Source: a virus. From it: DNA of 20,568 nt. The stretch lies in the IMG/VR virus record IMGVR_UViG_3300030101_003980, positions 1-20,568 of that record; one strand, given 5' to 3'. Under the pieces are notes generated by a model. The model was not told the DNA's origin. It did not search any database and saw nothing but the letters and a program-made list of their open reading frames with translations. Position 1 is the first letter of the stretch. Each line of letters begins with the position of its first letter. A program made the position numbers and the translations under genes. Positions 1,139 through 11,809 of the stretch are shown here, piece by piece.

Positions 1139-2433
1139 GAGTGAACCAGGGTGCTAAAGCGGCTGAAGCTGTTGGGCTCCATGTTGTTCAACCAGTTGCC
1201 CTTAACGATACGGCGAGCCGGACTGATAAGGTACCGCTTCTCCAGCCGAATCATAATCTCATCGAAACGGCGACGGTAAAGCTCCGACTGTGTCGGGTTG
1301 TCGTGCTTCATGAAGATGTCGGACAACGCCTTGTAAGCAATCACCATGCGCTGGTCGGGGGGTACAGCCGAAGTATCTCCATCCTCATACATGTACTGAT
1401 GCCGGCGCATGTAGCGGATCGTGAACGTGTAGTCCTTGTCCTGCCTTGGATACAGCCTGACCCGCTGTGTGAATCCGTCGCTGTTGGGGATGCGTCGGTC
1501 GTCAAACAGCAGTTCGGAGTCCACCAGATTAGATCGACGCAAATCGACGAGCGTGCGGACGGTCACATCTGTCGGGTCCAACTCAATAGGGGCGCCTGTT
1601 GACGGATCGTTCAACTGACGCCAAGCGTGATAACCCAGGTCTGGAGCGCGGAAGTAGTACCGCTTCTTCAGCCCGTCGTTTGCTACACCTGTGAACGGCG
1701 TAAGCTGGATGTCCTGCGTGTCCGTTGCTGAGAAAGCTACAACCTCACCGTGGTTAGACTCTCGACCACCACGAACAAAGGTGGATGTAATCTCAACTGT
1801 TCGAGCACCCTTACCTGCCGACACCGTTGTGGCACCAAGGTTAAAGTTTCGTCGCGGTGCTGCGATGTAATCGGGATCATAGTTGACCCAGTAAATGGGC
1901 AGGTTGGTCTCCCCCAAAGGCAGATTCCACCACTCGTCTTCGTATCGGGACAGCGGGGAAAGCATGCCTGGGTCGTTAGGCGTGCGCGTGTTCGACCGAC
2001 GAGCAAGACCCAAAACGGTGGTGCAGTCGAACGGTAGATCGATGTACCTGTTGATGACGGTGGCGCTGTAGCTTCCTGACGCACTCTCGAAGTTTCGCTC
2101 CAGCCGTGCCTGCGTCCCGCTGTCTACTACCGTGATGGTGTAGGTCTTGCTGTCTACGTCAATCTCCTGATTGACCATCCACGACTCGAAGAAAGCAGAA
2201 CCGGAGGTCATGACACGACCACCCCCCGTAAAGCTCAGCGTCGCGGTGCGGTCCTTGTAGACCAGCACATCGTCTGCCTTGTTGATGAACGTGAAAGGCT
2301 TTGACAGGCAAATCATTCGGTCTGCTTCGTTAAGCAGCCGATCGATCTGACGACGATAGGTGTCGTTGTTGGGGTCGTAGTCGAGCACGTTGGCGACGTA
2401 CTCGCGGAGTGCCTTGAGGTCAGACGCGGGCAT
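1135..2433 (-). CDS. Head-tail adaptor / tail tubular A-like protein
   Basis: A 432-residue protein starting at ATG 2433 behind AGGAGA. The N-terminus (LKALREYVANVLDY, then RQIDRLLNEADRMI) is helical and of the kind seen in head-tail connector and tail tubular A-type proteins, which sit as a ring beneath the portal. The middle is beta-rich, and the C-terminal third returns to helices (QRMVIAYKALSDIFMKHDN, then ELYRRRFDEIMIRLEKRY), typical of adaptor proteins whose helical bundle is completed by a C-terminal helix. It lies between the decoration-like gene and the tail/nozzle-like gene, the usual place for an adaptor. No catalytic motif is present. Its role as a virion structural protein is likely; the exact ring it forms is inferred. 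Confidence 0.65.
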   Translation of the reverse strand: MPASDLKALREYVANVLDYDPNNDTYRRQIDRLLNEADRMICLSKPFTFINKADDVLVYKDRTATLSFTGGGRVMTSGSAFFESWMVNQEIDVDSKTYTITVVDSGTQARLERNFESASGSYSATVINRYIDLPFDCTTVLGLARRSNTRTPNDPGMLSPLSRYEDEWWNLPLGETNLPIYWVNYDPDYIAAPRRNFNLGATTVSAGKGARTVEITSTFVRGGRESNHGEVVAFSATDTQDIQLTPFTGVANDGLKKRYYFRAPDLGYHAWRQLNDPSTGAPIELDPTDVTVRTLVDLRRSNLVDSELLFDDRRIPNSDGFTQRVRLYPRQDKDYTFTIRYMRRHQYMYEDGDTSAVPPDQRMVIAYKALSDIFMKHDNPTQSELYRRRFDEIMIRLEKRYLISPARRIVKGNWLNNMEPNSFSRFSTLVHS

Positions 2434-2449
2434 GATGCTCTCCTACGAG

Positions 2450-2469
2450 AAACCCCCGCCCCGGCGGGG
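2450..2469 (-). terminator. GC-rich hairpin with short U run (candidate terminator or attenuator)
   Basis: On the minus strand a CCCCGC/GCGGGG stem (six pairs, four-base loop) is followed by G and then TTTCT. It lies in the 66-bp gap between the decoration-like gene and the adaptor gene. The U run is short, so partial termination or an mRNA stability or processing element is as likely as full termination. It could lower expression of tail genes relative to capsid genes. Confidence 0.4.
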
Positions 2470-2499
2470 CCGAAGCAGGGGCTTGGTGTTTGCGACAGT

Positions 2500-2988
2500 C
2501 TACACGAACTGGTTGTACACCAGAACAGTAGCGACACCGAGTGTGTCTGCCTCGCAAGCAATAGCTGCGATGGACCGAAGCACAACCGTAGCCGAGCCGC
2601 CCTCGGCGACATCAGGGACGATCTCCAACTGACCGCCCGTGGAGCCGAGAGTCAGTCGGTTACCCGCGACGGTCGAGGTGTTAACCTTCGCCTCGGCGGG
2701 ACCGGCGGTCACGACAAACACGCGGGAACCTGCGGTCAGCGAGCCGTCAGGCTCTGCCGACTTGAGCACCACGCCGACAAACGCCGTTGCGGTAGCCGTG
2801 TCGGTATCGGCCTTGAGGACGAAAAGGGCCTTGTCCGCATCGACCGTCTTGGACATGTCGAGGCTGACAGCTTCCTTCTCGGCTACCGTTGCGGACGCAA
2901 TGAACACCTCGACCCGCCGACGTGCGGAGGTTGTGACACCGAAGTCGGCGCCGTCGTTGAGGCACTGGAGAATATCGTTGGTAGGCAT
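2500..2988 (-). CDS. Putative head decoration / capsid-associated protein
   Basis: A 162-residue protein lying four bases after the capsid gene stop and followed by a hairpin. It is rich in Ala, Val and Thr, with a predicted beta pattern (repeated V-x-V segments such as RVEVFIASATV and RVFVVTAGPAEAKV) and an A-x-G-x-R turn. This resembles small beta-barrel decoration proteins (DUF2190-like) encoded next to the major capsid gene. The ATG at 2988 has only a weak TGAG element ahead of it, so coupling to capsid translation is plausible. There is no enzymatic motif. The decoration role is inferred from position, size and composition; an unknown structural protein is the alternative. Confidence 0.5.
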   Translation of the reverse strand: MPTNDILQCLNDGADFGVTTSARRRVEVFIASATVAEKEAVSLDMSKTVDADKALFVLKADTDTATATAFVGVVLKSAEPDGSLTAGSRVFVVTAGPAEAKVNTSTVAGNRLTLGSTGGQLEIVPDVAEGGSATVVLRSIAAIACEADTLGVATVLVYNQFV

Positions 2989-2992
2989 GGTC

Positions 2993-4009
2993 TCAGGACT
3001 CCGCGTTGACGAGAATGCCGTGCCCCGAAAGGTTCGACGTGCAAATCTGCATACGGACAGCGATCTGGGCGCTCATCGCGGCATAGCCGCTGATGGACTC
3101 CATATCACCAAGCTCGAACTTGGCGTCGCGATCGAAGTAGCAGTTGAACAGCTTGGTGTTCAAGAAGTACATGGACATCTTGTTAGAGCCGCCGGATCCA
3201 GTAAATCCAAGGTTGGGCTCGATGAACATTGCGGCTCCGTTGAACTGGAGGGCAAGACGACCTGCCATGTTCCGCTCTTCGGTGGCCGAGACGTACCGCT
3301 CAAGCTGCTGAAGCTGATCCTTGTACAGACCGTACGAGGTGGGGCTGGCCAGGATCAGATCCACATCACCCTCAGGGGCAAACTGCTGGCAATCAATCAG
3401 CAGGGACTGCATCTTCTTAAGGCCATTGGCCGAGAATGCTCCGTCCTGAACCTGATTCTGCCACGAGGTGGTAAACGAAGACTTGTCGATCCCGCCGACC
3501 GTGTTGGCCTGGGAACCAAAAGCGCCTTCCTCGAACCAACCCGTTGCGCCGTCGAGACCGTTGAGGGTCTGAAGGTCAGTGAGGATGGTCGAGCTACCAG
3601 CGATAAGCTGCTTCTCGATCTCACGCTTGAACATGCCCATCGTCTGCTTCAGACGGGCCTCTGCGATGCGAACGATAGCCCGCTCACCCTTGTTGGAAAG
3701 CTCCTCCTTGCGGGTGATTACGACCGGAGCGGTCGCGTCACACCACGAGTAGGACGCCGTACGCATCGGGTCCTTGACCGCGAGGCTGACCGCTTCGTAA
3801 CCAGAGGAAAGCTGGGTGATAGTAGAGTGGTCGGTCAGGATCACCGGAGAGTCGATGTAGGACCCCCCATCGACAGTCTCGACGTTCCCACCACGCTCAA
3901 TAGCGTCGAGCAGCGGAATAATCTTGAAGGTGTTGTCAACCTCCTTGTCCCGAAGGATTCGGAGGGTACTGGCGAGAACGTCCGCCTGGACGCCTGTAGT
4001 CGTCGGCAT
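2993..4009 (-). CDS. Major capsid protein (HK97-like fold expected)
   Basis: A 338-residue protein following the scaffold gene. It begins with MPTTTGVQADVLASTLRILRD, has an early segment running from NTFKIIPLLDAIER into a beta region (GGSYIDSPVILTD) typical of an N-arm and E-loop, a long helix (ERAIVRIAEARLKQTMGMFKREIEKQL) like the spine helix, and a C-terminal A-domain-like region with ILASPTSYGLYKDQLQQLERY and FLNTKLFNCYFD. It matches the size and architecture of environmental podovirus and siphovirus capsid proteins. The ATG at 4009 follows AGAGGCACCT, a clear ribosome-binding site resembling the early-gene module. Scaffold upstream and decoration/adaptor downstream support the call. Confidence 0.85.
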   Translation of the reverse strand: MPTTTGVQADVLASTLRILRDKEVDNTFKIIPLLDAIERGGNVETVDGGSYIDSPVILTDHSTITQLSSGYEAVSLAVKDPMRTASYSWCDATAPVVITRKEELSNKGERAIVRIAEARLKQTMGMFKREIEKQLIAGSSTILTDLQTLNGLDGATGWFEEGAFGSQANTVGGIDKSSFTTSWQNQVQDGAFSANGLKKMQSLLIDCQQFAPEGDVDLILASPTSYGLYKDQLQQLERYVSATEERNMAGRLALQFNGAAMFIEPNLGFTGSGGSNKMSMYFLNTKLFNCYFDRDAKFELGDMESISGYAAMSAQIAVRMQICTSNLSGHGILVNAES

Positions 4010-4017
4010 AGGTGCCT

Positions 4018-4046
4018 CTCGTTAAAACGAGTTGATATTAAAACGA
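4018..4046 (-). promoter_or_regulatory. Leader of the capsid gene: twin TTAAAACGA repeats and small hairpin
   Basis: Two direct copies of TTAAAACGA (4022-4030 and 4038-4046, 16 bases apart) form the only AT-rich patch in the 114-bp gap between scaffold and capsid genes. On the minus strand they read TCGTTTTAA, and the upstream copy continues into TAATAT, a possible -10-like element without a convincing -35. CTCGT/ACGAG around the gene-proximal copy can form a five-pair hairpin just before the ribosome-binding site. This may be an internal promoter or protein-binding site that boosts capsid expression. Confidence 0.35.
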
Positions 4047-4123
4047 AGTGGCGTGTCCGTTATCGGGGCCAGTGACCGCCGGCGTATCCCGAAGGGTCCG
4101 GACAGTCTTGCGAAAACACTACC

Positions 4124-4993
4124 TCAATCATTCCGAGACTTCAAGGTCTGGTAGATTTCGTACGCACTTTTGTCCTTGATATCAGGGGACAAAACCGCCT
4201 TGCCTGGGCGCTGGCCCCGGTCTGTTATCAAGGCTGCACGCTGCTGGGCGCGGCGACGGACGACTGCGCGATCGTTGTCGAGTTGGCGCTCAGCCGTCAA
4301 CATCTTGCCCTTGACCATCCAGTACGCAGCCTCCAGCTTTAGGCTGGGGTCTGACTGGAGGGCCTCGTACACACCCTTCTTGACGTTGGAGTCGTCAACA
4401 AGATCGGGATGGGCGGACTTAAAGTTTTCATACCGGGCCTGCGCTTCGCTCTGCTGATTCTTCTTGTGCAAGGGCTCCAGAATCTGCTGAAGTCGCGAGG
4501 CAACCTTGCTCTCGATCAACTGCTGAATGTGGTCAGCGTTGAACGGGTCGAAGTCCTCCGGAGCATTTCCCGCCTGCTCCTTTAGAGAGTCAAGGACTCC
4601 GGACTCCATGAGGGCCTTGTTCTGAGCTTCAATCTTTCGCTTTTCGGCGGCAAGCTCCTGAGTCTTCCGGGTCATCATCTTGCGCATTTCAGCCATCGCG
4701 CGCTGCACTTCTTCCGGCTGATTTGAGTACACGCTGTCCCATGACTCACCTTCACGCAAGCCCTCTGGCTCTGGCTCTGGCTCGCTCTCCTTAGCCTCTC
4801 GCTGCTCCTGCAACTGCCGAGCCTTGCGCGTCTCATAAGCAGTCAGAAGGTTTTCAACCTCCTGCTTGTACTGGTTGGAGTTCGGGTTGCGCCGACCAGC
4901 GTTTTCTGGGGTTGCTGCTGCAACCTCGTCAACGTGCCCTGGTTCGACGGCAGCCGTGTCCGTTGCTTCGGGTGCTGCTGTCTGTTCGTCCAT
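4124..4993 (-). CDS. Scaffolding protein
   Basis: A 289-residue, highly charged protein. Its N-terminus is acidic, disordered and Ala/Thr/Glu-rich, with an EPEPEPE run encoded by a GGCTCT-type hexamer repeat near 4765-4785. A long helical coiled-coil-like centre (RAMAEMRKMMTRKTQELAAEKRKIEAQ) follows, and the C-terminus is basic (RAVVRRRAQQRAALITDRGQR) and ends in a helix. Acidic N-terminus, coiled coil and basic capsid-binding C-terminus, together with its place directly upstream of the capsid gene, are the hallmarks of phage scaffolds that shape the procapsid and then leave. The start at 4993 has GGAGAG about nine bases upstream. Confidence 0.82.
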   Translation of the reverse strand: MDEQTAAPEATDTAAVEPGHVDEVAAATPENAGRRNPNSNQYKQEVENLLTAYETRKARQLQEQREAKESEPEPEPEGLREGESWDSVYSNQPEEVQRAMAEMRKMMTRKTQELAAEKRKIEAQNKALMESGVLDSLKEQAGNAPEDFDPFNADHIQQLIESKVASRLQQILEPLHKKNQQSEAQARYENFKSAHPDLVDDSNVKKGVYEALQSDPSLKLEAAYWMVKGKMLTAERQLDNDRAVVRRRAQQRAALITDRGQRPGKAVLSPDIKDKSAYEIYQTLKSRND

Positions 4994-4995
4994 TT

Positions 4996-5460
4996 CTACA
5001 TTCTCTCCATCATCAGTGCTTCTTCACTCATGCCGCCAGGGGACATCCCTGGTGCAACCTCAACCTCAACCGCAACATCAGCGCCAGCAGACATTGCCTT
5101 CTGAAACTCAGGGCTCTGAGCCAGCTTCTTGACCTGAGACGCAAGCATTGCAACGTCTCGATCGTCTTCGATTCCTGACATCTCAAGGCTGACGCCGGCC
5201 CCGGACTCTCCCGCAGCGTCGGACAGCATCATCAAAAGGCGGATGAACTCTGATGGGAACTCCGTGACATCGCTGTCAAACTCCGGGTAATCACCCTCAA
5301 AGCCCGCCGACTCCAGCGCATCGTTTGCGGCATCTACCAATGCGTTCATCGAGGTCTGGGAAAACATGCCCCGAATGCTGGGCAGCGCCGAGTCCAGTCC
5401 AGCCTGGAGTTCTTCGCCTGCCATCATTGCCTCGCCTGCAACCTTGTCCATCTCATCCAT
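4996..5460 (-). CDS. Acidic hypothetical protein between zinc-ribbon gene and scaffold
   Basis: A 154-residue protein starting at ATG 5460. The frame extends further upstream, but GAGGTG lies just before this ATG and the preceding gene stops one base before it, so this start is preferred. It is acidic and Met-rich, mostly helical (MDEMDKVAGEAMMAGEELQ, then EFIRLLMMLSDAA), with a Gly/Met-rich tail and a VEVEVE stretch coded by a short CAACCT-type repeat near 5054-5070. No known motif is recognised. It sits in the capsid operon between portal and scaffold, so a structural or assembly-chaperone role is possible. The stop is two bases from the scaffold ATG. Confidence 0.6.
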   Translation of the reverse strand: MDEMDKVAGEAMMAGEELQAGLDSALPSIRGMFSQTSMNALVDAANDALESAGFEGDYPEFDSDVTEFPSEFIRLLMMLSDAAGESGAGVSLEMSGIEDDRDVAMLASQVKKLAQSPEFQKAMSAGADVAVEVEVAPGMSPGGMSEEALMMERM

Positions 5461-5461
5461 T

Positions 5462-5866
5462 TCACACCTCTGGGTCTGGGAAAGTCTGAGCCATTGCCAT
5501 GGCTGAACTGCCGGTATCTTCCAGCACTCGCTGGAAGGTTCGGACATTTTTTTCGTGCTTCTCGTGCTCGCGAGACACGCGGCTCTGCTCGGCCTCAACC
5601 TCCCCGTCCTGCAATGGGCGGAGGTTGCGCTCTTTCATGACGCTGTCGCGGTGGGCCTTGTCTCTATACGTGATGCCAAGACCTCGATCACGAAAACCAT
5701 CCCACTTGGTGTCTCCCCACTGCCACGCAGTTTTTGCTGGCATGGTGACAACCATTGCAGCCGAGGCCCCACAGACGCTGCAGGACACCAGATCCATACG
5801 TCGGCTGATGGATCGAAGCTCTTCGGTGTCGTGACCCCTTGGGCACATGTATCGGTACAGCGGCAT
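5462..5866 (-). CDS. FmdB-like zinc-ribbon protein
   Basis: A 134-residue protein opening with MPLYRYMCPRGHDTEE and a second knuckle CSVCG at residues 29-33. This is the layout of FmdB/CxxC-type zinc ribbons, except that the first knuckle is C8-x3-H12 rather than C-x2-C, a variant common in phage copies. The rest is charged and helical, with a KHEKNVRTFQRVLED segment. Start ATG 5866 overlaps the portal stop (TGATG) and follows GGAGAGG. Cellular FmdB proteins are described as putative regulators. In this capsid operon the function is unknown; a zinc-stabilised assembly factor or minor capsid component is possible. Confidence 0.65.
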   Translation of the reverse strand: MPLYRYMCPRGHDTEELRSISRRMDLVSCSVCGASAAMVVTMPAKTAWQWGDTKWDGFRDRGLGITYRDKAHRDSVMKERNLRPLQDGEVEAEQSRVSREHEKHEKNVRTFQRVLEDTGSSAMAMAQTFPDPEV

Positions 5867-7590
5867 CAGATTACCTCTCCATCGGGGAGGACGGCTCGAA
5901 CAGAACCCGGGGTTGGGATCTCTCCTGGAGCTACGCCCATGGACGGCAACGCTTCTGCCGCGCCGGCCATGGCGCCCGGGGGCATGCCTGGGGGTGAGGG
6001 CTGTGGAACTGGTGGGGTCGGCTGCTCTTCCGGGAGGAAGTCTTCGCTGAGCCTATAGACCCGGACAAGGCTCTTGAGGATGGTTTCGTTGTTGACCCCC
6101 AGGGCCTGTAGGACAGGCACAAGGTTCATCAACTCCTGCTTCTTGACTGCTTCGGACATTGGAGTCGAGCCAGAGTCCTGGGCAAAATATCCAAAATCTC
6201 CAGTCAGATCATCAGCTTGCAGTGCGGTGGCTTTACCCCCAAGGCGCACCATTTCCACCTCATCACCCATCAAGGTTGCCAGCATGACGACATACGCTTG
6301 TGCGATTTCGGCAATGGCGGCATCCCGTTCTCGCGCCATCCGCCCGATTTCCGATGCAGAGTATGCGGCCAGCGCGGTAACCTCCGTGGCTGTTGCTTTT
6401 GTGGCCTCTCCTCGTGTAAAGGGGGCCATGATGCTTCCCCTGCCGAAGTCATCCTCAACCTGATTTTCGTATACCTGTAGCTCAGGAGGAACGGGATTGT
6501 GAGGCACGGGAGAGATCGAACGGCTTAGGTCCTGCCCTGGTGACAGTTCGATTTCAATAAACTCACCGTCCTGCCCCTGAGCGATCTTAGACATGGCTTC
6601 TTCGTCGAGCACGCCCTTCTCGACCATCCACTGTCTGGCTGCTCGGCGGATGCCGTTTGCCTGAAACGTCCGGATGGTGTTGACTTCGACCACTTGATCG
6701 TAAACACGGCGCAAAGCCGAATAGCCCCGAAGGGGCTCGTCTGGCTCGCGAGACATGTACATCGGAATGATTGGGACAATGGGCCTGTCGCTGGCTGTCC
6801 GGAAGGGAATGCCATCGAACTTCTCCGAGGCAGACTCGTCCTCCACGCCAACATCAAGCTCGATGCCGTCGTACAAGAACTTGCGACCCTCGGAGTAGTC
6901 TGGAGACCAGACCAGAAGCCGCTCCTTCACAAGGTCGTAAAACTCCACTACCAAGATAAAGTCGTCTACTTGCTTGGTGACGGGATCCTCGTCTCTGCGG
7001 TATGCACCAACCATCTCGGACTCGTCCTGATAGTCGATGTAGCGGGCAAAAGAGCGTTTCGAGTACTTTTTATTTCCGTACTTTTTCTTTGCTGTTTCGA
7101 TTGGCACATAGTACCTGTGGCCAACATAACGCTGGGTGTTCCAACTTGAGGCAGCGTCATCCACCACAATGTCCCATGGTCCCACTGGTGTAACAATGAC
7201 TCTTCGCAGGACATCCTTTGCATCTGTAGGCGTCAGCTTCATTGCTGCCCATGGGTAGATCAAGGACTGTCTAAGTGCGTCCTCAATCTCTCGGCGAGTC
7301 CCAAGCAGCCAGTCGTTGGCCACTTCTTCGGTGATCTCAGGATCACCCGCCCCACGAAGGTCCGGCTTAACAATGACAGATGGGTCCCTGACAAACAGGC
7401 TTGCCACAAAACTCTCGATAAGCTCGTACGCGCGCGAGGTTTCGATCAAGAGGTTTTCGTCGTAAGACATGTTCCGCTGCCAGTACCGCATGAGGTAGGC
7501 GTTGCGGAGCCGCCTCATCTCTGGCCGGCGGTCATTCCAATACTCTTCGTGCTGGTCGTAGATTTTCTGAGCGACCTTGGGGGTAATCAT
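5866..7590 (-). CDS. Portal protein
   Basis: A 574-residue protein lying directly downstream of the large terminase. The frame extends to a GTG at 7605, but the ATG at 7590 makes an ATGA overlap with the terminase stop and has GGAG nine bases upstream, so it is chosen. The N-terminus (HEEYWNDRRPEMRRLRNAYLMRYW) and the following ETSRAYELIESFVASLFV are typical of dodecameric portals. GPWDIVVDDAASSW and a conserved-looking PLRGYSALRRVYDQVVEVNTIRTF region (clip/stem area) support this. After the GEATKATATEVTALA segment, which is very typical of portals, comes a long helix. The C-terminus is Pro/Gly/Met-rich, probably disordered. It forms the DNA channel at the capsid vertex and docks the terminase. 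Confidence 0.88.
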   Translation of the reverse strand: MITPKVAQKIYDQHEEYWNDRRPEMRRLRNAYLMRYWQRNMSYDENLLIETSRAYELIESFVASLFVRDPSVIVKPDLRGAGDPEITEEVANDWLLGTRREIEDALRQSLIYPWAAMKLTPTDAKDVLRRVIVTPVGPWDIVVDDAASSWNTQRYVGHRYYVPIETAKKKYGNKKYSKRSFARYIDYQDESEMVGAYRRDEDPVTKQVDDFILVVEFYDLVKERLLVWSPDYSEGRKFLYDGIELDVGVEDESASEKFDGIPFRTASDRPIVPIIPMYMSREPDEPLRGYSALRRVYDQVVEVNTIRTFQANGIRRAARQWMVEKGVLDEEAMSKIAQGQDGEFIEIELSPGQDLSRSISPVPHNPVPPELQVYENQVEDDFGRGSIMAPFTRGEATKATATEVTALAAYSASEIGRMARERDAAIAEIAQAYVVMLATLMGDEVEMVRLGGKATALQADDLTGDFGYFAQDSGSTPMSEAVKKQELMNLVPVLQALGVNNETILKSLVRVYRLSEDFLPEEQPTPPVPQPSPPGMPPGAMAGAAEALPSMGVAPGEIPTPGSVRAVLPDGEVI

Positions 7591-9134
7591 GTGTTTGTGC
7601 TCCACGGCAGGGCGCGAGACTTAATGCGAGCAACGCGACGGCTACGGATAAACTCGTCCATATACCCCGACATAGACTCCCTGCGATGAGAGAGCGGAGC
7701 ACTTCGGACGCAACGATAGGCGAGAGCGAGTGATACTGCAAGGTCATCATGCAGTCCTGACGGTGCCTCCGGGGTAACCCGCCGCACCTCAAGCGCCCTA
7801 AGCTCGTGCATGGTGGACTGGTCCAGGGCGAAGATGATGCCCGCTTTGATGTGCTCCCTTAAGCACTCAAACGCATCCAGCTTAGACCGCACCGTAGTGA
7901 TCCAAGGTTTACCCCGCGCATTCTTCCAGACGTTGGAGTAGCGCAATCTCCGTAGCTCTTGGAGAACGACGTATCCGTGGTTGTTTGCTTCGCATAGAAC
8001 CAGGGCCTTGTTGTAGCGGCGTGCCACTGTCGCCAATCGGGCCGCAAAGTCCACTGGGGAAATGGTGTTGCTGCGCTCAATATATACGGGCTGGAGTGAA
8101 CCAAGCTCAACCACCGACAGAGCCGAGTAATCCTGCCCTACACCTGCTGCGACATCTGCGCCGATAACGTACCGACTGGTCTCTTCTGGTGGCGCAAACT
8201 CCCTTTCAGGCTTGTCGAACCAAATCGTGTCGATCTGGTCAAGGTCACGAGGATCGAAGTACGTGCTCTCTCGCGCAAGAAACGCATCGTCCAAGCAGCC
8301 CGGGTACTCTCGCTTGAACTTGTGTGTGCCGAGCGTAGCCACCTGCTGCCTGCGCCACCACAACTGAGGCTCATCAAGACCGTACTTCTCGGAAAGCTCT
8401 TTCTCCTCAGGTGATAGCTCAAAATCCTCTGGCACCCGTTCGTCTCGGTATGCGTCGTGCTGCCACCACCAATACGTAAACACCGTCCAACCGTTTTCGG
8501 GTGCGCCTTCGATTAGCCTGTGGAACGCATCCCCAGGCACGTTGACCGTACTCTCGATAATGACCGGCCCGTTTCCGACTGTCGAGATGGTCTGAGCAAG
8601 AACCTCGTCGGAGTCAGTGTAAAAGGCGAACTCAGACAGGTGTCCCCCGGTAAACTCAAACGAACGGGTACCGCCTCGGCCGCCTGTGGTGAACGAGGAA
8701 AAGCCCGCAAGCGTATCCTTGAACAAGGTGTCCTCGGCGCTGTCTACCTCAAGGTCCCGCTGCAACAGCCCGGGCAGTTCTGCCAGCCAGCGTCGATCCA
8801 TGCGGCGAAGGTTTCGAGCAGACCTCTCGTGGAATGAGAGCACCGCATAGGTTTCTGGGTGGGGGCTGCTGTACGCACGGTGGAACTGCCACGCCCTTAC
8901 AGCCGTAGAGATACCGACCTGCCGAGCCTTGATGACGATGACGCGATTTGTCTCGTCCATCAGACCCCACAGCGCCTGCTGCGCCCTGTTTGGCTCAAAC
9001 GGGACAAACTTCTGCTTTTGCTTATGCTTGATCCGGAGCATGCGGCAGAATGCTGCCCGGTCTTGTAGCAGTCTCCCCGTGTCTGGGCGCATGTGCGCTG
9101 GCACAGTTTTGGGGATGTAGACTTCGTCGCTCAC
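7587..9134 (-). CDS. terL: Terminase large subunit (ATPase-nuclease)
   Basis: A 515-residue packaging motor. The ATPase domain has the terminase-type Walker A KARQVGIST (69-77), Walker B ending in E168 (GGHLSEFAFY) and a coupling-motif-like ESTVNVPGD (194-202). The RNase H-like nuclease domain follows, with D327 (VIGADVAAG), E382 (LCEANNHG) and D463/D464 (LHDDLAVSLALAY). All expected catalytic positions are present and length is normal. The start is GTG at 9134, overlapping the stop of the upstream small gene as GTGA. The protein translocates DNA into the procapsid through the adjacent portal and cuts it to genome or headful length. Confidence 0.95.
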   Translation of the reverse strand: MSDEVYIPKTVPAHMRPDTGRLLQDRAAFCRMLRIKHKQKQKFVPFEPNRAQQALWGLMDETNRVIVIKARQVGISTAVRAWQFHRAYSSPHPETYAVLSFHERSARNLRRMDRRWLAELPGLLQRDLEVDSAEDTLFKDTLAGFSSFTTGGRGGTRSFEFTGGHLSEFAFYTDSDEVLAQTISTVGNGPVIIESTVNVPGDAFHRLIEGAPENGWTVFTYWWWQHDAYRDERVPEDFELSPEEKELSEKYGLDEPQLWWRRQQVATLGTHKFKREYPGCLDDAFLARESTYFDPRDLDQIDTIWFDKPEREFAPPEETSRYVIGADVAAGVGQDYSALSVVELGSLQPVYIERSNTISPVDFAARLATVARRYNKALVLCEANNHGYVVLQELRRLRYSNVWKNARGKPWITTVRSKLDAFECLREHIKAGIIFALDQSTMHELRALEVRRVTPEAPSGLHDDLAVSLALAYRCVRSAPLSHRRESMSGYMDEFIRSRRVARIKSRALPWSTNT

Positions 9135-9358: not shown

Positions 9359-9472
9359 TGTGCCTCCCCAAACAGTGTATCACCGCGAACTCTGAAGACG
9401 CACGCACTTGGATTCGTCTCCATAGGGGTGGTATTTCGTTGTTTGGGTTTTGGGGTGGCCCCCCCACCCCCT

Positions 9473-9545
9473 GCAACGCGCCCGCGCGCACACCCGCGCG
9501 ATCGCGCGCCCGCGTCTCGCGACCCCGCGTCGCGATCGCGCGACT
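9473..9545. other. CpG-rich palindromic block
   Basis: The block consists almost wholly of CGCG-type sequence. It contains a perfect 14-bp palindrome CGCGCGATCGCGCG at 9495-9508, a second core CGCGATCGCG at 9531-9540, and around that core a GTCGCG/CGCGAC stem (9529-9534 with 9539-9544). The base composition is far more GC-rich than neighbouring coding DNA. Such a block could be a protein-binding site, a barrier between divergent transcripts, or part of an origin or packaging site. Confidence 0.6.
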
Positions 9546-9558
9546 CATCCCCGCCGCG

Positions 9559-9613
9559 CACCAGCTGCGCACCAGCTGCTCACCAGCTGCGCACCAGCTG
9601 CTCACGAGCTACG
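9559..9613 (+). repeat. Five tandem 11-bp repeats (iteron-like)
   Basis: Units of CACCAGCTGC(G/T) begin at 9559, 9570, 9581, 9592 and 9603. The first four are identical except for the last base, which alternates G, T, G, T, giving a 22-bp higher-order period. The fifth is degenerate (CACGAGCTACG), and a sixth, more degraded copy begins at 9614. Each intact unit carries the palindrome CAGCTG. A period of 11 bp places each site on nearly the same face of the helix, as expected for cooperative binding by an initiator, a small terminase or a regulator. Confidence 0.8.
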
Positions 9614-9660
9614 CACCAAACTACGCGAGAACACAGGCGTGGTGCGCATCGTAGGCGAAT

Positions 9661-9691
9661 CAGTGCACCCCCCAGACCCCTGGGTGCACTG
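9661..9691. promoter_or_regulatory. Perfect 10-bp inverted repeat (operator or hairpin)
   Basis: CAGTGCACCC (9661-9670) and GGGTGCACTG (9682-9691) are perfect inverse complements around an 11-base spacer. No T run follows, so a terminator is unlikely. The arms contain GGTGCACT, which recurs downstream (see the repeat entry). This favours a DNA-binding site, such as an operator for the early genes, although a stable RNA stem cannot be excluded. Confidence 0.55.
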
Positions 9692-9842
9692 CATGAACGC
9701 CGACCAGCACGGCATTCTCTGGCAGGCAGTGCAACCCCCAAGGGGTCGGTATGTGTTTAAATCATTTTCAACGGTTGGTCCCTATTCAACCCCAAAGAGC
9801 TAACACTGGACAGTGAAAACACAGACCAGGAGGGCATTCTGG

Positions 9843-9877
9843 AGTGCATCGCAGGTCATATGGGGTGCACTTTTTTT
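9843..9877 (+). terminator. Weak hairpin followed by seven T (candidate attenuator)
   Basis: AGTGCAT (9843-9849) can pair with GTGCACT (9865-9871; one G-U pair), and the T run extends to 9877. The stem is short and the loop long (15 bases), so termination would be inefficient. Lying 170 bp upstream of the first early gene, it could attenuate transcripts started in the intergenic region, but chance is possible. Confidence 0.3.
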
Positions 9878-10030
9878 ATATCGGCGAGAACGCCGTACTG
9901 GTGGAGCTTATGCGAGAACCCACCCCGACCGCCTCCAATGTTTCTTGGCCCAATGGGTTGCGCGTCCCGACGGTCCGTGCCATGTTGCATTCACCACCGG
10001 ACATCCCGCTGGCTCCGCTCCCACCCCACA

Positions 10031-10048
10031 TCATGAGGCACACCATGA
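10031..10048 (+). promoter_or_regulatory. Repeated translation-initiation module, copy 1
   Basis: TCATGAGGCACACCATGA supplies a Shine-Dalgarno (GAGG), a six-base spacer and the start codon of the gene at 10045. The flanking TCATG and CATGA are complementary, so the start codon can pair with the upstream CAT, leaving the ribosome-binding site in the loop. The 16 bases from ATGAGG onward are identical in all four copies, although the coding sequences differ. Confidence 0.75.
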
Positions 10049-10374
10049 CGCAGACCACAACCATTCACCCGCTGCCCATCGAGTCCTTCATCCACGCGTG
10101 GCTCCGGCAGACCACTGGCCCCACCTACGCACGCTCCGCCTCCCTGGTCCGCTGTTGCTGGGCAATGGTCCACGTCATGGGCTGGAACCATGACCGCTGC
10201 GACGATGCCATCCACTACGCGAAGGTGAACCGCACCATCACCGAAAGGGAGGGCGATTCCATGCAGGCAGCATGCGAGGCTCTGGTGCTGAATACGAAGT
10301 ACACCACCGTTCACCCACTGCCCCTCGTTTACAGCAACATCGAGCAGACCCTTCGCACCATGGGTGCACTGTGA
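10045..10374 (+). CDS. Hypothetical early protein, 109 aa
   Basis: The first gene of the rightward operon. The frame is open upstream to 9844, but the ATG at 10045 has the GAGGCACACC ribosome-binding module and is chosen. The in-frame ATG four codons earlier (giving MRHTM...) has only A/C-rich sequence ahead of it. The protein is helical with several Cys, His and Trp residues (RCCWAMVHVMGWNHDRCDD), and no family is recognised. A short motif, T-x-H-P-L-P, occurs near both ends (residues 6-11 and about 89-94), coded by two similar 21-bp stretches. Its stop overlaps the next start (GTGA). Position suggests an early host-interaction gene; this is inference. Confidence 0.7.
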   Translation: MTQTTTIHPLPIESFIHAWLRQTTGPTYARSASLVRCCWAMVHVMGWNHDRCDDAIHYAKVNRTITEREGDSMQAACEALVLNTKYTTVHPLPLVYSNIEQTLRTMGAL

Positions 10375-10577
10375 ACCAGTACACCGCAGAAGAGGCCATC
10401 GCCATCGCCCTGGGCGGCTCTCTCAAGCAGCGCGAGCGATTCGAGCGCAAGATGGGACGCAGTTTGTCCACCGTCCTGGACATCGCGTGGGACTGGGCGG
10501 AGATGACCGGGAAGCCGTACCTCTCCCTCGCATGCGAGGACGCCTACAACCACCTGACAGGACGGACGGACGAGTGA
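10371..10577 (+). CDS. Hypothetical small early protein, 68 aa
   Basis: It starts at GTG 10371, overlapping the preceding stop as GTGA; the longer frame upstream lies inside the preceding gene and is rejected. The sequence opens NQYTAEEAIAIALGGSLKQRERFERKMG, then SLSTVLDIAWDWAEMTGKPYL, a compact, helical, mixed-charge fold without a recognised motif. The junction lies on a GGTGCACT octamer and lacks a strong ribosome-binding site, so expression probably depends on the upstream gene. A strong GC hairpin follows four bases after its stop. Confidence 0.65.
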   Translation: MNQYTAEEAIAIALGGSLKQRERFERKMGRSLSTVLDIAWDWAEMTGKPYLSLACEDAYNHLTGRTDE

Positions 10578-10580
10578 ACG

Positions 10581-10600
10581 CCAGCCCCCCCGGGGGCTGG
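10581..10600 (+). other. GC hairpin after the 68-aa gene
   Basis: CCAGCCCC and GGGGCTGG form an eight-pair stem (10581-10588 with 10593-10600) around a four-base loop. No T run follows, so it is not a standard intrinsic terminator. It may protect or separate segments of the early mRNA, as it lies just after a stop codon and before the next initiation module. Confidence 0.5.
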
Positions 10601-10667
10601 TCTGCACCTAATGCCGGTGCACTGACGAGCCGATGGCACGGCGAAACCTACACCACACCCCACACCA

Positions 10668-10685
10668 TCATGAGGCACACCATGA
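10668..10685 (+). promoter_or_regulatory. Repeated translation-initiation module, copy 2
   Basis: Identical to copy 1 over 18 bases (TCATGAGGCACACCATGA) and preceded by an A/C-rich tract. It supplies the start codon at 10682. Confidence 0.75.
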
Positions 10686-11005
10686 CGACCCCCACCGCTC
10701 ACGAGTACTTCGCCGACGTTGCCAGCATCGCCAGGGAGATCGTCGCAGAGCACGGCGACAGCGACGACTACATCCACGACGCCATCCACGAGGCGTGCGA
10801 CGGTTCGCAGTGGGTCATCTACACCTACCGCGCCCGTAAGGTGCTGGAGTTCAGCAGCAACGATGAGGCAGGCCCTGACGAGATGGGGTGGGACGGCTTC
10901 TCCGAAGGCTGCGACGGATGGGTCGACGTGTTCACCCGGGGCGCGTACTTCGCTATGTGTGCTGACGTCTCCGAGAAGGTCCACGACCTGCGCGGTGAAC
11001 TGTAA
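10682..11005 (+). CDS. Hypothetical early protein, 107 aa
   Basis: It starts at the second ATG of the module. The much longer frame running back to 10364 lies inside the preceding gene and is rejected. The product is acidic: a helical N-terminus (HEYFADVASIAREIVAEHGDSDDYIHDAIHEACDG in outline), then WVIYTYRARKVLEFSSND, and a Trp/Gly-rich stretch (GWDGFSEGCDGWVDVF). The layout recalls small phage proteins of unknown function that may mimic DNA or inhibit host enzymes, but no family is recognised. It ends before an A/C tract and a hairpin. Confidence 0.7.
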   Translation: MTTPTAHEYFADVASIAREIVAEHGDSDDYIHDAIHEACDGSQWVIYTYRARKVLEFSSNDEAGPDEMGWDGFSEGCDGWVDVFTRGAYFAMCADVSEKVHDLRGEL

Positions 11006-11010
11006 GCCGG

Positions 11011-11069
11011 ACCACCACACCCACACCACACCCACACCACACCACACCCACCAGGGGGCGCAAGCCCCC
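11011..11069 (+). promoter_or_regulatory. A/C-only tract followed by GNRA-capped hairpin
   Basis: The 43 bases 11011-11053 are only A and C (CACACC-type repeats). GGGGGC-GCAA-GCCCCC follows at 11054-11069, a perfect six-pair stem closed by a GNRA tetraloop. It ends five bases before initiation module 3. An unstructured A/C leader plus a stable cap before a ribosome-binding site may set mRNA stability, translation rate or protein binding. Confidence 0.55.
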
Positions 11070-11073
11070 GACA

Positions 11074-11091
11074 TCATGAGGCACACCATGA
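11074..11091 (+). promoter_or_regulatory. Repeated translation-initiation module, copy 3
   Basis: The same 18 bases as copies 1 and 2, providing the start codon at 11088. It lies immediately after the GNRA hairpin. Confidence 0.75.
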
Positions 11092-11318
11092 CCTACGAGA
11101 TTATCGAGCACGACCCCATCCTTGGCGCTCGCCTTTGGCGCGTATCGGACTGCACCGCCTGCGATGGTACCGGCGAGGACTGGTACCCCGGGTGCGATGA
11201 CGCGGCGGCAACGTGCAGAACCTGTGACGGAGCGGGACAGGTGGGGGTCTTCAAGTGGCTTGACCTTAACGGCAAGCCCTACGGGGGCTGGCTTACGCTG
11301 GCAAGCGAGGCGGTATGA
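11088..11318 (+). CDS. Small DnaJ-type zinc-finger protein, 76 aa
   Basis: It contains two C-x-x-C-x-G-x-G repeats, CTACDGTG (22-29) and CRTCDGAG (43-50), the signature of half of the cysteine-rich zinc domain of DnaJ. A further Cys (36) lies between them. There is no J domain. Such isolated motifs bind one zinc and occur in small phage and chaperone-like proteins. They may bind unfolded protein or nucleic acid, or engage host chaperones. The start is set by the module; the stop overlaps the next gene as ATGA. Zinc binding is well supported; the function is unknown. Confidence 0.75.
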   Translation: MTYEIIEHDPILGARLWRVSDCTACDGTGEDWYPGCDDAAATCRTCDGAGQVGVFKWLDLNGKPYGGWLTLASEAV

Positions 11319-11458
11319 ACTGGCACCGGCTTCCCTTCCTGCGTGATGTGCTGCATGAGCACTACACTCCCGCAGATTTCGCAGACGATGCGCTCGCAGC
11401 ACTCCCCTTCTTCGCTGGCCTGCTGGCCCTGGCATTTACGCTTGGTCTGTGCGGCTGA
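11315..11458 (+). CDS. Tiny single-span membrane protein, 47 aa
   Basis: An ATG at 11315 overlaps the zinc-finger gene stop (ATGA) and opens a 47-codon frame. The N-terminus is charged (MNWHRLPFLRDVLHEHY, then PADFADD), and the last twenty residues (ALAALPFFAGLLALAFTLGL) form one clear transmembrane helix ending at Cys-Gly. No independent ribosome-binding site is evident, so it is probably translated by coupling. Tight linkage with the zinc-finger gene suggests joint action, perhaps at the host membrane. Possible roles include an inhibitor of superinfection or of a host membrane protein; none can be shown from the sequence. Confidence 0.6.
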   Translation: MNWHRLPFLRDVLHEHYTPADFADDALAALPFFAGLLALAFTLGLCG

Positions 11459-11477
11459 AGCACACCCACCCCCTACA

Positions 11478-11495
11478 CCATGAGGCACACCATGA
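11478..11495 (+). promoter_or_regulatory. Repeated translation-initiation module, copy 4
   Basis: CCATGAGGCACACCATGA: the 16-base core is identical to the other copies, but the first base is C instead of T, leaving only a four-pair CATG/CATG stem. It is preceded by an A/C-rich stretch and supplies the start codon at 11492. Confidence 0.75.
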
Positions 11496-11809
11496 TCCTG
11501 ACCCCCTCCGAAGTACTCGACGCGGACTGCACTGCACTTGCCGACCGTGTCGGGGAAGCCTGCGTCATCCACTACCACCCCACCGCCGACGAGGTGGACG
11601 CGATCGAGTTCATCGGTGCACGGTACGCCGTGTCCTCAGTCCTGCTCTCAGGGATGGAACTCCAGGAAGACGACACGTACCGGATGACGATCTGCCCGCT
11701 GGACGTGTCGGAAGCACTGGCAGCCGATGGTATCGACCGTGTGCCGATGCTGTCCGAAGACACCGCGCTTGCGCGGCTCGTCTGGCTTATCGGTCCGGCG
11801 GCGGAGTGA
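11492..11809 (+). CDS. Hypothetical early protein, 105 aa
   Basis: It starts at the second ATG of module 4; the upstream ATG (11480) lacks a ribosome-binding site. The protein is acidic with an alternating helix/strand pattern: ILTPSEVLDADCTALADRVG, then ACVIHYHPTADEVDAIEFIGARYAVSSVLLSG, ending in SEDTALARLVWLIGPAAE. No family is recognised. Its stop overlaps the next start as GTGA. Acidity and early position fit a host-takeover or anti-defence protein, which is only inference. Confidence 0.65.
   Translation: MILTPSEVLDADCTALADRVGEACVIHYHPTADEVDAIEFIGARYAVSSVLLSGMELQEDDTYRMTICPLDVSEALAADGIDRVPMLSEDTALARLVWLIGPAAE

Follow-up and report, generated by a model that had tools for sequence, protein, structure and literature searches.

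Hammerhead ribozymes clustered between prophage genes, just 5' of gene starts, have been proposed to process messages by cutting long transcripts down to the length of single genes (Perreault et al. 2011, PMC3088659). Cleavage was seen in vitro and, for the set flanking the anti-restriction gene ardA, whose hammerheads lie just 5' of that gene, also in E. coli (PMC3088659). The HHphage hammerhead of haloviruses HF1 and HF2 is placed in a comparable way, 13 nt 5' of the start codon of an early gene (PMC3088659). Separately, repeated sequences are found at gene starts in cluster K mycobacteriophages, where Pope et al. 2011 described the SAS, with the 13-bp consensus GGGATAGGAGCCC (PMC3203893). 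The SAS is present in 11-19 copies and about half of SAS genes have a second element upstream, the ESAS, whose inverted repeats do not covary as RNA (PMC3203893).

Here we describe a locus of an environmental DNA phage, within the first 20,568 bases (the window) of a virus record of 33,256 bases. As in the prophage clusters, predicted hammerheads lie between phage genes, beside a putative Ocr-like gene here and beside ardA there. Unlike those clusters, they belong to an environmental phage group in which a repeated start leader lies behind the ribozymes, the ribozyme before one orthologous gene is of type I or type III depending on the phage, and a hairpin abuts the type III cut. HHphage differs from this clade as a single ribozyme of an archaeal virus for which a repeated leader is not described. 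The module repeated here, ATGAGGCACACCATGA, resembles the SAS in being a short repeat containing a Shine-Dalgarno (SD) sequence just before the starts of unrelated non-structural genes, but it does not match the 13-bp consensus, has four copies and extends into the start codon, and where the SAS has the ESAS, the upstream element is a predicted ribozyme. A search for later work on phage hammerheads, limited to non-subscription papers, found nothing beyond the 2011 paper. Hammerheads beside phage genes are thus known, as are start sequences repeated within a phage; within these limits of the open literature, their joining, together with a cut-abutting hairpin, is new.

A repeated start module in the early operon

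The leftward genes of the window are structural (terminase, portal and capsid, the latter two called by size and position only), and the rightward operon consists of small early genes followed by a VapE-type primase/helicase and an ERF recombinase. In this operon, one copy of the 16-mer heads each of genes 1 to 4 (Table 1). An exact search recovered the four copies reported by the first-pass annotation and no others, all on the plus strand, and the longer identity it had seen in three of them amounts to 21 nt, CATCATGAGGCACACCATGAC, common to copies 1-3, with copy 4 identical over 17 (the extra base being the C before the ATG). Allowing up to three mismatches adds one match in the window, where shuffles expect 0.35. 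The remaining 12.7 kb of the record contains no further copy, and, an ACC tract aside, every unrelated 16-mer in the record is found at most twice. The open frames headed by the module ATGs encode 109, 107, 76 and 105 aa (copies 1-4), and their products are unrelated, as had been proposed: no match among the four proteins is better than E 0.4 and they are not paralogues. The genes that lie between them, at 10371, 11315 and 11806, have no module and overlap the stop of the preceding gene, suggesting that each translational sub-block opens with a module.

Table 1. Positions of the start modules, predicted RNA structures and gene 2 in the window
Feature	Positions	Strand	Description
Start module copy 1	10033..10048	+	exact repeat; SD AGG, CACACC spacer, ATG 10045; leads gene 1 (10045-10374)
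Hairpin	10580..10601	+	9-bp GC-rich stem, CCCC loop; -18.8 kcal/mol, z -2.5; ends at the predicted cut
Type III hammerhead ribozyme (predicted)	10595..10652	+	predicted cut C10602/T10603; CTGACGA 10622-10628; GAAA 10643-10646
Start module copy 2	10670..10685	+	exact repeat; ATG 10682; 67 nt 3' of the predicted ribozyme cut
Gene 2	10682..11005	+	107 aa, acidic, pI 4.27, predicted all-helical
Hairpin before copy 3	11054..11069	+	GGGGGC-GCAA-GCCCCC; z -3.95, 0/200 shuffles as stable; ribozyme core absent
Start module copy 3	11076..11091	+	exact repeat; ATG 11088; leads gene 3 (11088-11318)
Start module copy 4	11480..11495	+	exact repeat; ATG 11492; leads gene 4 (11492-11809)

Repeats of this kind, intergenic, on one strand and with imperfect dyad symmetry, could be DNA elements, a promoter or operator at each gene in the manner of a dispersed regulator site. 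We regard this as the least probable of the readings weighed here, since the module is always fixed to an SD and a start codon in a single orientation, the dyad is not conserved and no sigma-70-like promoter was found in the region. The symmetry was also read in the first-pass annotation as an RNA fold, in which TCATG at one end pairs with CATGA at the other, placing the SD in a loop and masking the start codon. As an RNA switch, this fold would hide SD and start until a phage or host factor opened all four copies together. The pairing exists as described, perfect over 5 bp in copies 1-3 and worth -3.5 kcal/mol for the module alone, but only four of the pairs form in copy 4, and within its surrounding sequence the fold does not outdo shuffles (z 0.2 to -1.6, not significant). 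Given that the TCATG half is moreover absent from the leaders of all relatives, we consider such a switch very improbable, and the masking part of the proposal is not supported.

Two stretches of the region are repetitive. Where the terminase and early operons diverge, a long stretch between genes (9440-9900) has low-complexity GC repeats, tandem copies of CACCAGCTG and several GGGTGCAC(T) motifs; in relatives, GGTGCA repeats of a comparable kind occupy this position, which is perhaps an origin or promoter. The gap between genes 2 and 3 contains a run of CACACC/ACCACACCC repeats (11008-11052), a very A/C-rich unstructured leader stretch.

Leaders of early genes in related phages

Searches with the terminase retrieved 17 and then 80 related contigs; the primase retrieved no relatives when used as the query. 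In bacterial and archaeal genomes, the terminase query found no relative that would point to a host. The close clade, defined by a terminase 79-90% identical, consists of L107/L109, L015, L016, L019, L020 and L021. The 16-mer itself is absent from the first 17 terminase-related records, but early genes of the close clade have leaders such as AAGGACACACACC-ATG, AGAGGACACACA-ATG and AAGGGGCACACCCA-ATG. What these share with the window is the SD, CACAC and the second ATG (leader type RAGGACACAC..ATG); the upstream in-frame ATG and the TCATG half of the palindrome are found in the window only, which argues against both a conserved MRHTM peptide and a conserved SD-masking hairpin and is in line with the RNA-level role in initiation that had been favored over a peptide. 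The comparison indicates that the true start is the second ATG, with AGG (within GAGG) as the Shine-Dalgarno sequence and CACACC as a conserved spacer, and that the 16-mer is a lineage-specific version of the close-clade leader. No leader with SD, CACAC and ATG was found in the same region of about 40 more distant loci, several of which are short there. An SD with CAC after it is, however, also enriched at starts elsewhere in the family.

Nine other viral contigs contain the exact 16-mer once each. They are not relatives: several of these copies are coding coincidences (for example the RHT motif of a tyrosine recombinase in L001), and three contigs share a gene start of the ordinary kind. In the distantly related phage L058 (terminase 28%), which comes from the same metagenome as L019, positions 2400-5717 contain leaders of the AGAGGACAC type together with hammerheads of types I and III, a hint that the host sets the leader style or that exchange has taken place.

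Orthologues of gene 2 were found in L107 (64% identity) and L021 (45%), and of gene 4 in L021 (47%), and their leaders are of the AAGGACACACAC type. Since the orthologues are kept and have the relatives' leader, the window copies appear to have arisen in place and not to have been brought in with the genes, presumably homogenized in place by conversion or by strong parallel selection. This bears on the suggestion that the repeat is a homology seam, a recombination site at which early genes are exchanged as cassettes. Early gene content is indeed variable, and the relatives offer no convincing orthologue of gene 1 or gene 3. For genes 2 and 4, however, leader and gene have travelled separately, and no other record has several copies of the 16-mer at such starts; we therefore find the seam quite improbable.

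Gene 2 is probably an Ocr-like DNA mimic with an anti-restriction role. It matches the ocr-like PHROG profile (E 0.019), and with a structure model of pLDDT 72, T7 Ocr occupies ranks 1, 2 and 4 of the Foldseek search of the PDB (probability 0.93-0.99, TM ~0.6, with weak E values of 0.28-0.83). Matches of its homologues to PADLOC HORMA (E 0.013) and Pfam TPR_CHK1 were judged to be chance. Gene 3 is of a CxxCxG type resembling a zinc finger, with a weak match to DnaJ_CXXCXGXG.

Hammerheads before the leaders of the clade

The first-pass annotation had overlooked a hammerhead just 5' of copy 2, as well as the ribozymes that precede the matching leaders of relatives. By sequence and structure, the region before copy 2 is a type III hammerhead with a predicted cut between genes. 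It matches Rfam RF00008 with 35.9 bits (E 2e-5 in a search of 2.5 kb, 6.3e-8 in its own genome), which is below the gathering score of 48.5 bits and so outside curated membership of the family. The core is complete (CUGACGA, GAAA, a GUC cleavage site and the A15.1-U16.1 pair), and all three stems are present, stem I with 6 bp, stem II with 4 bp and stem III, short and open, with 3 bp. No second ribozyme was detected in the window, at copies 1, 3 or 4, by both Rfam models and a strict core pattern.

In the closest relative, L107, an orthologous type III ribozyme precedes the orthologous gene 2, whose leader is AAGGACACACACCATG. A third type III was found in L182, an otherwise unrelated phage of 44.7 kb, with a pattern in which the varying positions were left open. 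All 17 pairs are kept across the three sequences and two show compensatory changes on both sides: stem I has A-U, C-G or G-C as its fourth pair, a different one in each sequence, and in stem II the inner pair changes as well. Covariation support is moderate, 29 of 500 shuffles scoring as high with only three sequences. The 17 pairs include a 4-bp UGCC/GGCA pairing between loops I and II, a putative tertiary contact that could form in all three (with a G-U in one).

The hairpin that abuts the window ribozyme begins 3 nt past the stop of the upstream gene (10371-10577), and L107 and L182 have a hairpin of different sequence at the equivalent place. It competes with the ribozyme for the same GGU, placing the active fold ~8 kcal/mol above the minimum in a secondary-structure model that leaves out tertiary contacts. 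This competition suggests that the window ribozyme may be slow or inactive; the 3-pair stem III and the sub-threshold Rfam score also speak against it.

Other members of the close clade have type I hammerheads in this position. In L021 a complete type I hammerhead lies directly before three of four AGGACACAC leaders, with sequences such as GAGUGA-CUGACGAG-ACC-GGAA-GGU-CGAAAC-GUCCC...GGGACGUC/UCACUC-UCACCCAAGGACACACACC-AUG, and L019 has two more. All five precede AAGGACACAC start leaders, with 22-26 nt from the predicted cut to the ATG; when aligned, 100% of their cells are paired, six pairs have changed on both sides and none of 500 shuffles reaches the covariation score. The L021 orthologue of gene 4 is among the genes preceded by a type I hammerhead, with the leader AAGGACACACACGC-ATG. 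Before gene 2, the window and L107 have a type III hammerhead and L021 a type I. The ribozyme of gene 2 would have been replaced or would have arisen twice, and both point to selection for a cut before this gene. Rfam at gathering thresholds returned nothing in any relative, which is a false negative due to the strictness of the cut-offs. A weak RF00163 match in G017 (E 0.027) was not used, and when the ribozyme regions were compared with named phages by blastn, the matches were due to chance only.

These leaders might still be plain ribosome-binding sites of a host that favors AGG-CAC, with the window copies having converged on, or been recently copied from, the strongest version and the ribozyme at copy 2 being unrelated. 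An SD followed by CAC does occur at other starts of the same genome (TerS, GAGGCACA-ATG; major capsid, GAGGCACCT-ATG; ERF, AGGGCACAATC-ATG) and is enriched among SD-starts of the wider family (47 of 216 versus 46 of 1492 out-of-frame controls, summed), and three of the four window copies stand without a ribozyme. We nevertheless consider this account unlikely, because the 16-21 identical bases, including the non-pairing CATC/ATG flank, are more than an SD preference requires, and because five of the seven such leaders in L021 and L019 have a ribozyme directly 5' of them.

Phage hammerheads at gene starts and a proposed processing unit

Two pattern scans of IMG/VR provided a wider set of phage hammerheads, 71 of them testable. 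An SD, a start codon and an open reading frame follow within 60 nt (median 30) of 45 of the 71, compared with 98 of 710 random positions on the same strand (14%) and 2 of 69 on the opposite strand. Where a phage has several hammerheads, one leader tends to be reused behind them, as in L063 (GGGAGGTTAGAAG-ATG), L067 (TGGAGCTGTACAG-ATG), L070 and L090. L070 has four nearly identical hammerheads on the minus strand (6712-8676), and in at least three of the four the whole of ribozyme and leader is nearly identical before different genes, so that, as judged by sequence, L070 argues strongly for a ribozyme-start cassette that is used repeatedly. Hammerheads of L067, L063, L090 and L070 are structurally complete and score below the Rfam gathering cut-offs, so annotation of phages based on Rfam misses them.

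Nearly every phage type III hammerhead has a stable hairpin that ends 0-10 nt 5' of the predicted cut, right after the upstream stop. Type III examples numbered 21 (from L058, L073, L076, L083, L084, L092, L093, L095-L097, L099, L105, L107 and the window). Their last 34 nt before the cut average -14.9 kcal/mol versus about -5 for stretches 40-160 nt upstream, although a small number of related phages account for many of these examples and the count overstates their independence. The 3' end of the upstream message may be protected by such a hairpin. In type I, stem III is closed and by construction places a hairpin at the cut, and with either type the upstream product would thus end in a 3' hairpin and the downstream product begin with a leader.

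Taken together, we think it likely that the 16-mer is the standard start leader of the small early genes and the downstream half of a processing-and-start unit of the clade. The full unit would consist, in order, of a stop codon, a hairpin, a hammerhead, a short unstructured leader and SD-CACAC-ATG; within the window it would survive complete at copy 2 only, copies 1, 3 and 4 being the translation half alone (copy 3 together with a plain hairpin). The early operon would be made as a single RNA and the ribozyme would cut it between genes, at C10602/T10603, into gene-block messages. The upstream message would keep a 3'-terminal hairpin protecting its end, and the downstream message would carry a short A/C-rich 5' leader with a strong, uniform ribosome-binding site. 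Across the clade, hammerheads probably divide the long early transcript in this way into messages of one gene each. We infer cleavage, and its effects on message stability and translation, from the repeat, the conservation of the leader, the sequence, structure and covariation of the ribozymes, the orthology of the genes and the placement of these elements, all established here. Against this explanation, a ribozyme is found at just one of the four window copies and the 16-mer does not need one, and the exact 16-mer is confined to this record as a multi-copy start leader. The copies without a ribozyme indicate that in this phage the module is mainly a start leader.

A broader proposal, which we offer tentatively and would ourselves lean against, is that phages use a modular, self-processing punctuation unit made up of a stop codon, a hairpin, a hammerhead and a phage-specific leader that recurs before many genes. 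Types I and III might be exchanged in it before the same gene while the ends of the products stay constant, and the type III hairpin would be the functional counterpart of the closed stem III of type I, its refolding driving product release.

The role of phage hammerheads is a question that has stood since 2011. That the same gene is preceded by a ribozyme of type III in two phages and of type I in a third, close to a repeated leader, fits selection for cutting there, and this pattern at gene 2 makes the idea of message processing directly testable. Repeats at gene starts, known so far by description and lacking an explanation, gain an RNA-processing context.
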